Below are positions 23,025 through 40,872 of a DNA stretch of 64,000 bases, piece by piece. Origin of the DNA: Nothopassalora personata. Lineage: Eukaryota; Ascomycota; Dothideomycetes; Mycosphaerellales; Mycosphaerellaceae. Where the stretch lies: positions 806,001 to 870,000 of the forward strand of contig CM066292.1 in assembly GCA_033816765.1 (NCBI GenBank), read 5' to 3'. A program made the translations under genes and the position numbers. The notes under the pieces are model-generated. The model saw nothing but the letters and a program-made list of their open reading frames with translations, was not told the origin of the DNA and did not search any database. Within the stretch, counting starts at the first letter, position 1, and each line of letters begins with the position of its first letter.

Positions 23025-23474
23025 ATATCTTCTTCTTCCTATAAACGTTAGTAACGAATCGTAGGGTCTAGGTCTAGAAAGTGTTTAGTCTATATTTGTA
23101 AAGGCTATAAGGACTACAATATACATCTTTCTCGTTTAGAATAGGAGCGCCTTTACGAGTCGCATAATAAGCTTAAACTAAAGCTTAGAATAATTTAAGA
23201 GGAGGAAGTACGGTTAAAGATACGTAAGATCTATCTTTATAAATAACTACGCCTAGTAGAGCGTCGTACGGACGATACTCCTACTAAGGAGGTAGACGAG
23301 CTTAAAGAGGAGAAAGTATATTAAAAATTAGCGGCTCTTAAGTAATTATCTAGCGTCTTTCTATTAGCCTCTTCTCTAGATATTCTCGAGATACTAGTAA
23401 ATAAGTAGGCTACCCTTTTAGGTTTAGAGCTATAGGATCCTCTCTTAGGTATAGATCCTCCTTTAGGCTCTTAA
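23025..23474 (+). pseudogene. Antisense gene relic of Gypsy-A': Cys cluster plus coiled coil
   Basis: Lies opposite to gag-pol, between the pol end and the 3' LTR, starting about 53 bp from the LTR. The presumed start codon is ATA (from ATG), followed by four Ser codons and YKR, matching the MSSSSAQRKKRR start of the intact TR-GAG protein. Then come a basic stretch (GSRSRK), a Cys-rich segment (CLVYICKGYKDY, with Tyr at likely former Cys positions), a Glu/Lys/Leu-rich helix (RLYESHNKLKLKLRII, EEEVRLKIRKIYLYK) and an acidic/Gly/Pro end stopping at TAA 23472-23474. About 150 codons. All internal stops are TAG/TAA. Homology to the TR-GAG protein is inferred from layout and start, not from an alignment score. 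Confidence 0.62.
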
Positions 23475-32134: not shown

Positions 32135-32450
32135 TGTTACGGTCCGGTACGATCGTGCACGTGGAAGAACTTCATTCGTTGGGAATAGGGACACGCGCTG
32201 CCAATGAGCGGGCGCTCTTGTGTGACTCATAGCAGAGCGCTCTTAGTGCTCTACCGAGAGAGCAGGACAGACCGCGCCAAGACATGGCACTATATAGACG
32301 ACGCTCTTTTGCAAGTAGATAGGAGCTTCGTGCTCAACTCATTTTAAGTATACACCATATACTGTTTGGAACCACTACCTTCATAACTGATTGAGACATC
32401 CCTGCAAAGATCCAAGCCCGAGTTGTGATAACGTACAGCGGTTCCTAACA
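32135..32450 (+). repeat. 5' LTR of TR-GAG (316 bp)
   Basis: TG...CA ends. Identical by eye to 34196-34511. It carries a TATATA box (32291-32296) and several CGCTCTT / GAGAGAGC words. ACTTTGAGCACC follows directly, at the place of the primer-binding site. Confidence 0.95.
32291..32297 (+). promoter_or_regulatory. TATA box in the TR-GAG 5' LTR
   Basis: TATATAG in CACTATATAGACGAC, about 190 bp before the gag ATG. It would set LTR transcription of the plus strand. The same box is in the 3' LTR at 34352. Confidence 0.5.
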
Positions 32451-32482
32451 ACTTTGAGCACCACCACCAGGGCCCTTTGCAT

Positions 32483-33475
32483 ATGTCTGGGAGAGACGCT
32501 ACCCGGAGTCCGTCACGACAACAGCCACAGTCAACTGGCATAACGGAACGAATGAGCGAAATGTCGATTACAGGAAGCAGCAAGAACAACAACACTCCTA
32601 TGGGTATGCTGAACCCATTGGACCACCACCGTGCACCTAAGGTGTCTACGCCGGAGACGTTCGACGGGACCAAGGACAAACTGGAGGCTTTTCAACTGCA
32701 GGTTCAGTTGTACCTTCACTTCAACGCACACCAGTTTCAAGGCGAGGCTTCTAAAGTCTTGTACGCCGCATCCTTCCTACGAGGAAAAGCAGCTAGAGGA
32801 TTCCGACCATACCTCAAGGACTGGCTACACAACCAGGGCGAGGGAGAAACACCGAAAACGGAAACTCGAAAAATTTTCCACGACTACGACGAGTTTGAGA
32901 CGAAACTCGATGATCTATACGGGATACCAAATGAGGAGGTATACGCCGACCGACATATCCGACAACTTCGACAGACTACTTCTGTAGCGCTGTACGCCTC
33001 AGAATTCCAAGGATATGCCGCCGACCTGGAATGGAACGACGCAGCTTTGCGATCGCAGTTCTACCTCGGGCTGAAAGACAACGTCAAAGCCGAACTATCC
33101 CGAAACGCCAGCGTCGTTACGCTAGGGGCGATGATCAAGGCAGCAAAGGAGATCGACGAAAGGCTCCAGGAGTTGAGGTACGACCGACACGTACAGCCTG
33201 GATACCAGAGACCCGCCGCGGGCGGAAGAGGGGGCTTCAAGGCCAGAAGTCAGGACCCTAATGGTTACGGAGACCCAATGGAATTGGACGTAACGGAACG
33301 TAGGACAGGAAGGGGGCTGAAGAGCAAAGGTTCCACCTGCTACGTATGTGGCGAGCAAGGCCATTTTGCAAGGAACTGCAAGAAAAAGAACATGGTTAGC
33401 CGCGAGTTCAACGCAATGATTCGCGAAGAGAATACATACCAGGAATGCGAGAACTTCTTCTCGAAATCTGCCTAG
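32483..33475 (+). CDS. gag: TR-GAG Gag protein with CCHC zinc knuckle
   Basis: Structural protein that packages the element RNA. I start it at ATG 32483 (MSGRDATRSPS); an upstream TTG in frame is unlikely as a eukaryotic start. 330 residues, ending at TAG 33473-33475. The capsid part has ETFDGTKDKLEAFQLQVQLY and FLRGKAARGFRPYLKDWL. The zinc knuckle CYVCGEQGHFARNC is at about 286-299, preceded by DPMELDVTERR. The segments PMELDVT and KNMVRRE/KNMVSRE around the knuckle, and RG-A----PYLK, are shared with Gypsy-A Gag, so both Gags probably co-assemble or use the same packaging signals. It lacks the long acidic tail of Gypsy-A Gag. Intact, no RIP. Confidence 0.92.
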   Translation: MSGRDATRSPSRQQPQSTGITERMSEMSITGSSKNNNTPMGMLNPLDHHRAPKVSTPETFDGTKDKLEAFQLQVQLYLHFNAHQFQGEASKVLYAASFLRGKAARGFRPYLKDWLHNQGEGETPKTETRKIFHDYDEFETKLDDLYGIPNEEVYADRHIRQLRQTTSVALYASEFQGYAADLEWNDAALRSQFYLGLKDNVKAELSRNASVVTLGAMIKAAKEIDERLQELRYDRHVQPGYQRPAAGGRGGFKARSQDPNGYGDPMELDVTERRTGRGLKSKGSTCYVCGEQGHFARNCKKKNMVSREFNAMIREENTYQECENFFSKSA

Positions 33476-33587
33476 CAGAAACAACCTGAGGACAGCAAGG
33501 CATCAAACAGCGGCTTCTTGATTTGATGACCTAGGACACAGAAGTCAACACAACGACACGGGACAAATGACTACTGGATATCACGAC
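33476..33587. other. Spacer between convergent gag and antisense gene
   Basis: 112 bp between the gag stop and the antisense stop (33588-33590). Nothing recognisable; it must hold the 3' end of the antisense transcript. Confidence 0.5.
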
Positions 33588-34088
33588 TTACGACGGATGG
33601 CCATCGGGCCACGAGAACGGAGAAGCGAGGCCGGCTCCAAGAAGATCGCTCTCGAGACCAGGGAAGTCCGACAGTTCGGGGTCGTTCGGATCGAACTCTG
33701 TGTTGGCGGCGAGGTGGGCTACTTCCTCGTCGACCCGCGAGTTATTCATGTTTCGAACCTCGCGATTGCGACGGATCCGCTGACGGAGAGCCTCGATCTT
33801 TCGGAAAATGTCTTCCGCGGAAATCTTGAGCCGCTCTATCTCCTGCTCGTCTGACTCGATCTTCTCTGTCAACTCTTCCACGACGCGGTCGAGTTTCTCG
33901 AGGGAGGAGGTGACACAAGGTTTCCCGAGGCGGGTGCAGTTGGCACAAGACATGATGGAAAAATCGGCAATGTAAACGCAGGGGCGCTGATTCCGGCAAC
34001 AGTGGTCGCAAGGTTTAGAAGGAACAAAGGGATCAGCAAAGATTTTAGCAAGACGACGTTTTTTGCGCTGGGCGGAGGACGAAGACAT
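33588..34088 (-). CDS. Antisense Zn2Cys6-type cluster / coiled-coil protein of TR-GAG
   Basis: 166 residues, ATG at 34088-34086, TAA at 33590-33588, opposite to gag and convergent with it. The start is MSSSSAQRKKRRLAK, a basic, possibly nuclear-localising segment. Cys 27, 30, 37, 48, 51 and 58 form CX2CX6CX10CX2CX6C, which fits the fungal Zn2Cys6 binuclear cluster (Gal4 type) spacing. Residues about 62-112 are a Leu/Glu/Lys-rich coiled coil (LDRVVEELTEKIESDEQEI), as in dimerising Zn2Cys6 factors; the C-terminus is acidic (DPNDPELSDFPGLESDLLG). There is no middle-homology domain and the length is short. The ATG is 108 bp inside the 3' LTR, so an antisense promoter in or near that LTR could drive it. 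Relics in the same place in Gypsy-A' and Gypsy-B argue for selection. DNA binding is inferred, not shown. Confidence 0.82.
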   Translation of the reverse strand: MSSSSAQRKKRRLAKIFADPFVPSKPCDHCCRNQRPCVYIADFSIMSCANCTRLGKPCVTSSLEKLDRVVEELTEKIESDEQEIERLKISAEDIFRKIEALRQRIRRNREVRNMNNSRVDEEVAHLAANTEFDPNDPELSDFPGLESDLLGAGLASPFSWPDGHPS

Positions 34089-34181
34089 GGTAAGAAAAGG
34101 GTGGTTGCGGAATTTGAATTTCGGAGGACAGGACCTACTTATGACTAACGAACGACACGTGATCGCTGGGGCATCGATCCT

Positions 34182-34195
34182 AGGGAGGGGGATGG
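34182..34195 (+). other. Polypurine tract of TR-GAG
   Basis: AGGGAGGGGGATGG lies immediately before the 3' LTR, the expected site for plus-strand priming. Confidence 0.75.
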
Positions 34196-34511
34196 TGTTA
34201 CGGTCCGGTACGATCGTGCACGTGGAAGAACTTCATTCGTTGGGAATAGGGACACGCGCTGCCAATGAGCGGGCGCTCTTGTGTGACTCATAGCAGAGCG
34301 CTCTTAGTGCTCTACCGAGAGAGCAGGACAGACCGCGCCAAGACATGGCACTATATAGACGACGCTCTTTTGCAAGTAGATAGGAGCTTCGTGCTCAACT
34401 CATTTTAAGTATACACCATATACTGTTTGGAACCACTACCTTCATAACTGATTGAGACATCCCTGCAAAGATCCAAGCCCGAGTTGTGATAACGTACAGC
34501 GGTTCCTAACA
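34196..34511 (+). repeat. 3' LTR of TR-GAG (316 bp)
   Basis: Reads as identical to the 5' LTR. Followed by TAAAC (34512-34516), the second copy of the target site. Confidence 0.95.
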
Positions 34512-40309: not shown

Positions 40310-40872
40310 GATAGGCCTAGAGAGCATTATCTAGAATTAGCGATAACTCCTCCTACGAAGAAATTAGTATTTAGAAGACCGCTTCTAACTCTTCGGGAGT
40401 ACCCTTAGGAACGAGGAGACACGACGAAGGAGTAGATAACGCTTCTACGCCCTCGGCTAGAAGTTTCTATACGTCCTTAAAATTCTTCGTAATCGCCTTC
40501 TCCTCGCGCTCCTCGGTAACGCGTAATTGTTTACGTAGACAATAAACCTTTAATAGCCTCTATTACCTTCTCTTTGGTATTGTTAAGCTCCCGCTTAAGT
40601 TTATAACGTTAATTACGAAGTCTCTCCTATTCGGTCTAAGTAATAGTTACGTTATACTTTACGCCCTTCCGAACGTACTCCGAGTAATAGCTAAATTAAA
40701 CGTCTACTATATATCGCGGACGACTCTTTCCCTTAGGAACCCGCGCCTTCTAATAACTAGTATATAGAGACGGTATTTTGCGACCTTTAGACTCGATACC
40801 TAGCGCTTAACGCTCTCTACGCTCTTAACGGGTTAGCGGCTCCCTACTTATAGCACAATAAGAGACGGACAT
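40310..40872 (-). pseudogene. Antisense gene relic of Gypsy-B: Cys cluster plus coiled coil
   Basis: Opposite to gag-pol, with ATG at 40872-40870, only 47 bp from the 3' LTR start (40920). It starts MSVSYCAISREP, then a basic stretch, and at about 40720-40650 reads FSYYSEYVRKGVKYNVTIT. That is a Cys-cluster half with Tyr in likely former Cys positions (pattern CCxxCxxxxxxC). A Glu/Lys/Leu-rich helix follows (LKRELNNTKEKVIEAIKG). A one-base shift near 40560 moves the coiled coil to the next frame (LRVTEEREEKAITKNFKDV). The C-terminus is acidic, ending near 40310. Stops are TAG/TAA. It has the same layout as the intact TR-GAG protein, but sequence identity is low outside the pattern. Confidence 0.62.

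Follow-up and report, generated by a model that had tools for sequence, protein, structure and literature searches.

The antisense gene brtn of Boty-like Ty3/gypsy elements in Botrytis was reportedly described by Zhao et al. in Virology in 2011. Antisense genes at the same place, with an unknown function, are known in plant elements and in Boty (PMC7264820, passages on these genes), and antisense genes in long terminal repeat (LTR) elements are also treated in sections of PMC11963269, PMC8365987, PMC4227169, and PMC5987419. Because the arrangement is known in other LTR elements, including the fungal brtn of Boty, the position of the gene reported here is not new. The gene lies in a stretch of 64,000 nucleotides of Nothopassalora personata (contig CM066292.1, positions 806,001 to 870,000; hereafter the window), between gag and the 3' LTR of a gag-only LTR retrotransposon. 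The best explanation of its properties, which we consider probable, is that it encodes a self-specific zinc-cluster-like regulator which moves together with its target DNA as one cassette.

Like brtn, the gene belongs to a fungal LTR element, and the location of brtn between pol and the 3' LTR recurs in a full-length element of the same genome (L040, see below). In this comparison, made by description alone, a difference is that neither a zinc cluster nor a cassette with the U3 (the unique 3' region of the LTR) is mentioned in the passages on brtn. No match named BRTN was among the relatives listed in the protein and profile searches, most of which are nameless; brtn and the present genes may be the same family. 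The aORF-3R genes of plants (Grande gene23, RIRE2, and Retand TRP28) share position and orientation with the gene (PMC7264820 and PMC11963269, sections on them), are suspected there of a nuclear or DNA-binding role, and are retained in non-autonomous Retand copies. They belong to other protein families (PF04195 had no match at an expect value (E) up to 1 in the ten proteins scanned with Pfam), and swapping of U3 and regulator is not mentioned in the passages on them. In the immunity regions of lambdoid phages, which have a backbone in common, the repressor and its operators are swapped as a unit. Block exchange on a backbone is also found here, but in a eukaryotic retroelement and with a sign of regulation that is inferred. 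HBZ of human T-cell leukemia virus type 1 (HTLV-1) has a dimerising helix. It is the closest retroviral parallel, being encoded antisense from the 3' LTR and modulating transcription (PMC3736048, in part), but it is a bZIP protein of an exogenous retrovirus, and no bZIP model was among the Pfam matches at E up to 1 in the same ten proteins. The closest functional parallel is VANC of VANDAL, an element-encoded, sequence-specific protein for which demethylation was demonstrated (PMC5735166, in part).

A protein search of the 54.5-Mb genome (E up to 1e-3) returned 111 rows: 67 uninterrupted members, 43 interrupted copies, and one open reading frame (ORF) of 771 amino acids, which seems unrelated. 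After further queries (types G, K, J, and H and the Cercospora protein P0013), at least 21 antisense types were distinguished. We delimited the types ourselves from the identity and the open-frame length of the search rows; sequences were obtained for ten types, and types L to V were grouped from the search rows, with element context for all of these except M, P, Q, T, and U. An antisense gene is located just downstream and on the opposite strand in 117 of the 121 gag copies scored (from 1049 candidate rows), and the genes next to scored gag copies span 13 types (A, B, C, F, G, H, I, L, N, O, R, S, and V). Full-length Ty3/gypsy elements carry it as well: among the 41 pol copies scored (from 3591 candidate rows), it accompanies 9/9 of pol group E, 15/15 of group K, and 9/17 of group J, and each of these groups has its own antisense type. 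An earlier note on this DNA proposed that selection retains the ORF in elements that have diverged from one another, a non-autonomous one included; these counts, together with the substitution ratios and the two relics described below, bear this out. The full-length element L040 has identical LTRs of 378 bases, a gag of 698 and a pol of 1134 amino acids, and an antisense gene for 167 amino acids adjoining the 3' LTR. Eight J-like pol copies (e.g., G000:C6:4452187-4455585) have no antisense gene among the matches listed; they may carry an unlisted type, in which case full-length elements would swap cassettes, too.

The exchange of antisense gene and U3 was traced in the gag-only types A, B, C, G, and H, whose gag DNA is 98.7% to 99.9% identical. 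From the core promoter to the U5 (the unique 5' region), their identity is 90% to 99%; in U3 it is 35% to 51% (26% after shuffling), and in the antisense coding sequence 32% to 65% (34% after shuffling). The gag of type F is 95% to 96% identical, and its first 67 core bases are common with type A; it was left out of the core-to-U5 identities, since the compared piece was cut to 48 bases and the resulting 25% to 27% are an artefact. A shared block, GCCAAGACATGGCACTATATAG, starts some 15 bases ahead of TATATA in seven gag-only types. The sequences that precede this block diverge, apart from some short motifs common to types A, G, H, and I just upstream of it. On the other side, 3' of gag, the types lose their similarity within some 120 bases ahead of the antisense stop codon; between A and H it extends up to this codon. 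The swapped stretch reaches from the end of the antisense gene to about 15 bases before TATATA.

U3 matches of types A, I, and K were collected genome-wide. An antisense gene was listed near 86 of the 121 matches, and in 85 of these 86 it was of the same type, which indicates that antisense gene and U3 are inherited together in these three types. The one mismatch pairs a U3 of type K with a gene of type N at a distance of 7 kb, within the wide interval used for K; the two probably belong to different elements. The other 35 matches have no antisense gene nearby among the matches listed and are solo LTRs or have unlisted genes. As far as our searches reach, the joint exchange with U3, the zinc-cluster-like family, and its diversity in one genome are new. 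Searches of the open-licence literature listed no recognised account of regulator–U3 swapping, or of an antisense gene with a zinc cluster, in fungal LTR elements; subscription journals may differ. A word search of PMC3248453 (LTR Retrotransposons in Fungi) found neither antisense nor zinc.

The antisense ORF is maintained by selection, as suggested in the earlier note. The ratios of nonsynonymous to synonymous substitution rates (dN/dS, NG86) are not near 1 but 0.16 (A-B), 0.22 (A-C), and 0.09 (B-C) in the three closest pairs, for which dS is near saturation (1.5 to 4). More distant pairs gave 0.14 to 0.60 where dS was defined and are uninformative where it was infinite. Codon-position bias was significant in the closest pairs (p 6e-8, 1e-5, and 2e-7, respectively). 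Pairwise protein identity among the ten types is as low as 13% and at most 63%; since a six-cysteine pattern persists in 20/20 aligned proteins despite this divergence, and in view of the codon-position bias, the ORF is coding. A chance ORF is ruled out by dN/dS, codon-position bias, and the fixed cysteines. A purine at position −3 of the start codon was seen by eye in 10/10 types. The 26 type-A copies fall into three haplotypes, 15 being identical, ten having one amino-acid change, and one a silent change. In type J, 9 of 24 near-identical antisense genes have a single TAG, which indicates that an early-stop variant has spread; one has a single TAA.

In Gal4-type proteins, the cysteine spacing is CX2CX6CX5-12CX2CX6-8C, and the CX6C loop touches the DNA. 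The type A protein follows CX2CX6CX10CX2CX6C and falls within the Gal4-type spacing of PF00172; in type H, 13 residues separate the second and third cysteine, and the pattern common to the aligned proteins is a looser one. With Leu3, Hap1, Pho7, and Ppr1, the antisense proteins share the cysteine spacing, a linker with a coiled coil, and an acidic tail; they differ in scoring below the Pfam cutoff, in the hypervariable contact loop, and in being element-encoded. Because PF00172 was found below the cutoff, namely in six of the ten scanned proteins with 15.8 bits at best, the protein is termed zinc-cluster-like and is not filed as a Gal4-type member. The loop is the most variable part measured, with a pairwise identity of 13% over types A, B, C, E, and F and P0003. 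For the linker beside the cluster and for the second CX6C, the values are 59% and 52% in this set and 80% and 67% among A, B, and C. The last 45 residues are acidic in all 20 aligned proteins (net charge −4 to −9), and the N-terminus is basic in 19 of them and neutral in type H. In AlphaFold models of type A (predicted local distance difference test, pLDDT, 80) and type J (pLDDT 82), a long helix comes after a small cluster. Zn2Cys6 chains made up 6/7 Foldseek and 12/16 VIA rows for type A and 2/4 and 10/11 rows for type J, all of these matches being weak, and the top VIA rows for both models were unrelated helices. A profile search of PDB sequences gave six rows over the cysteine region, all of them zinc-cluster proteins with Leu3 first (E 0.037); phmmer with type A against PDB sequences yielded no significant match.

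Repeated 7-mers exceed dinucleotide shuffles in the U3 of eight of the ten types (reached in at most 1 of 300 shuffles), not in those of A (43 of 300) and H (16 of 300), and none of seven control stretches fell below 0.05. The repeat motifs are mostly type-specific, except for GAGAGCA in H, I, and J (once in A) and GCGCGAC in E and K. In the U3 of type K (L054:731-945), a 71-base repeat holds CGG-N10-CCG twice, a spacing similar to that of Put3, and CGG-N11-CCG occurs in type I close to where the LTR begins. A dyad with a GGA centre (GGG in A) and changing arms is situated between the antisense start and the polypurine tract in 10/10 types. In its arms, 50 of 56 cells over seven distinct rows are Watson–Crick pairs with no G-U pair, a value reached in 0/5000 shuffles, although the arms were placed by hand with one base omitted in three types, which flatters the shuffle test. 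The dyad could be an RNA hairpin or an operator of the antisense gene. A minus-strand TATA pattern was found in only two of the ten types.

In the mechanism we propose, expression of the antisense gene would run inward from the side of the 3' LTR, and the product would be a dimeric, presumably zinc-binding regulator specific for the DNA of its own element type. The protein may act on sites in U3, perhaps also on the dyad before its own start, and would thereby control its own transcription as well as that of gag(-pol) from the 5' LTR. Regulator and target lie side by side at the element's 3' end and would move jointly when elements recombine, which would place many specificities on one gag backbone. 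The U3 linkage, the variable loop, the U3 repeats, and the weak structural resemblance point, indirectly, to binding of LTR DNA by the antisense protein. Other results weigh against this explanation. None of the ten proteins scanned passed the Pfam gathering score of PF00172 (Zn_clus, 21 bits), so that the Zn2Cys6 label given to the protein in the earlier note agrees with the cysteine spacing but not with Pfam. CGG/CCG is not enriched in any of the ten U3s, and the similarity of U3 does not correlate significantly with that of the protein across the ten types (rho 0.23, permutation p 0.08).

With regard to the sign, the acidic aromatic tails make us lean slightly toward activation or anti-silencing rather than repression. 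A repressor conferring immunity, which would shut off the U3 of its own type, limit copies of the same type, and be escaped by new cassettes in the manner of phage heteroimmunity, is rather unlikely, since these tails resemble activation domains in 20/20 proteins and the capture of cassettes from different full-length families could alone yield the diversity. In its favour are the presence of at least 13 types on one near-identical gag backbone, the complete linkage of regulator and U3, and the benefit that escape would bring to rare types, a gain that a rare activator type would not have. It is conceivable, though tentative, that the elements form immunity-like specificity groups, each with an antisense regulator with its own loop and cognate U3 sites, and that one gag backbone took up at least 13 cassettes via recombination because a new specificity escapes repression by the resident type or silencing directed against it. 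Anti-silencing in the manner of VANC would mean that the protein, bound to repeated motifs of its own element, lifts host silencing without being a classical activator. The targets of VANC, in non-coding DNA of its own element, are often arranged as tandem repeats, which differ from one related element to another (PMC5735166, in part); the type-specific U3 repeats and the numerous mutated copies with an abundance of new TAG/TAA stops are in line with this. Judged by sequence alone, the repeats in 8/10 U3s, the linkage of 85/86, and the correlation with p 0.08 bear on it; VANC, however, is a different protein family of DNA transposons, and we consider this reading unlikely.

The dyad suggests a further alternative, an accessory protein that binds RNA or particles, its cysteines contacting element RNA and the dyad forming a hairpin. 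The covarying stem and the conserved GG(A/G) centre agree with it; the lack of G-U pairs does not, the basic N-terminus suits DNA equally, and the U3 linkage and U3 repeats are left unexplained, which makes it quite improbable. Antisense LTR transcripts devoid of coding capacity are known (PMC7264820, in part), but a functional antisense RNA, or an ORF that is a mere passenger, hardly agrees with a protein frame under purifying selection, fixed cysteines, and the purine at −3, and has very little probability. If the cassette explanation is correct, fungal retrotransposons have a self-specific control akin to phage immunity or VANC. The family supplies many types in one genome and a putative DNA-binding domain whose contact loop varies. 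Its members form natural swap experiments, in which regulator and U3 differ at constant gag and core promoter, so that specificity for the own U3 is testable.

Relatives were also retrieved outside this genome. Profile searches returned 14 and 34 proteins, most of them from metagenomes; the named fungi were Sporormia fimetaria, Cercospora kikuchii, Cladosporium fusiforme, Saxophila tyrrhenica, Elasticomyces elasticus, and Haloplaca. Identity between the Cercospora protein and interrupted copies in the present genome reaches 67%; one of these copies adjoins the 3' LTR of a paired-LTR element (L035). If the proposed role is true, retroelement regulators may be found among the "hypothetical" proteins of Cercospora, Sporormia, Cladosporium, and other fungi. 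Five metagenome relatives (P0016, P0018, P0020, P0041, and P0045) were automatically named "regulator of replication initiation timing," which is probably a coiled-coil misannotation.

The features of the element, called TR-GAG in the earlier note, are compiled in the table below. Its LTRs measure 316 bases each, and the 5-base flanking repeat is TAAAC. The intact minus-strand ORF with its cysteine pattern, coiled coil, and acidic end is as described there, the helix being a prediction; the start codon is 107 bases from the 3' LTR, not 108, within a range of 64 to 107 bases across the ten sequenced types.

Table. Features of the gag-only element and of related antisense sequences in the window
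Feature	Position	Strand	Basis
Complete gag-only LTR retrotransposon, pol absent	32135-34511		LTR pair and flanking repeat
5' LTR	32135..32450	+	U3 same as in 3' LTR; shared core promoter from 32276
gag, 330 amino acids	32483..33475	+	Retrotrans_gag, zinc knuckle
Antisense gene, type A, 166 codons plus stop	33588..34088	-	Intact ORF between gag and 3' LTR
Acidic tail with F and W	33591..33701	-	Charge over last 45 residues
Predicted long helix/coiled coil, residues 63-129	33702..33902	-	AlphaFold model
Six-cysteine cluster, residues 27-58	33915..34010	-	Pattern in 20/20 aligned proteins
Hypervariable CX6C loop, residues 31-36	33981..33998	-	0/18 residue pairs identical among types A, B, and C
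Dyad/hairpin	34161..34179	.	Between antisense start and polypurine tract
Polypurine tract AGGGAGGGGGATGG	34182..34195	+	Sequence
3' LTR	34196..34511	+	Identical to 5' LTR
Variable U3, changes with antisense gene	34196..34336	+	Shared core promoter begins at 34337
Relic of type-H-like antisense gene in Gypsy-A'	23046..23465	+	Type H query, small profile
Relic of antisense gene in Gypsy-B	40464..40827	-	Type H query, small profile

The mutated antisense frames that had been suspected in the neighboring elements Gypsy-A' and Gypsy-B were both recovered above chance with a suitable query. The type H protein matched Gypsy-A' at 23046-23312 (+, E 5.4e-9) and Gypsy-B at 40537-40827 (-, E 2.9e-6), and a profile of seven sequences gave E of about 1.5e-4 and 1.7e-4, respectively. 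Both were found only with these two queries: the general profile of 47 sequences, run on the window, did not list Gypsy-A' and gave only E 2.4 for Gypsy-B. Mutated antisense copies rich in new TAG/TAA stops are numerous in the genome. At least fourteen H-like relic rows share the same stop count (4 TAG, 3 TAA), some 14.8 kb apart; they are located at the start of C9 of G000 and on the small contigs C20, C21, C30, C31, C33, C34, C39, and C40 and are perhaps a subtelomeric repeat. Six type-A gag-only elements are arranged head-to-tail with a period of 2056 bases (G000:C12:1355698-1366475; L038 and L039), and a type-G pair on C11 repeats at a period of 2100.
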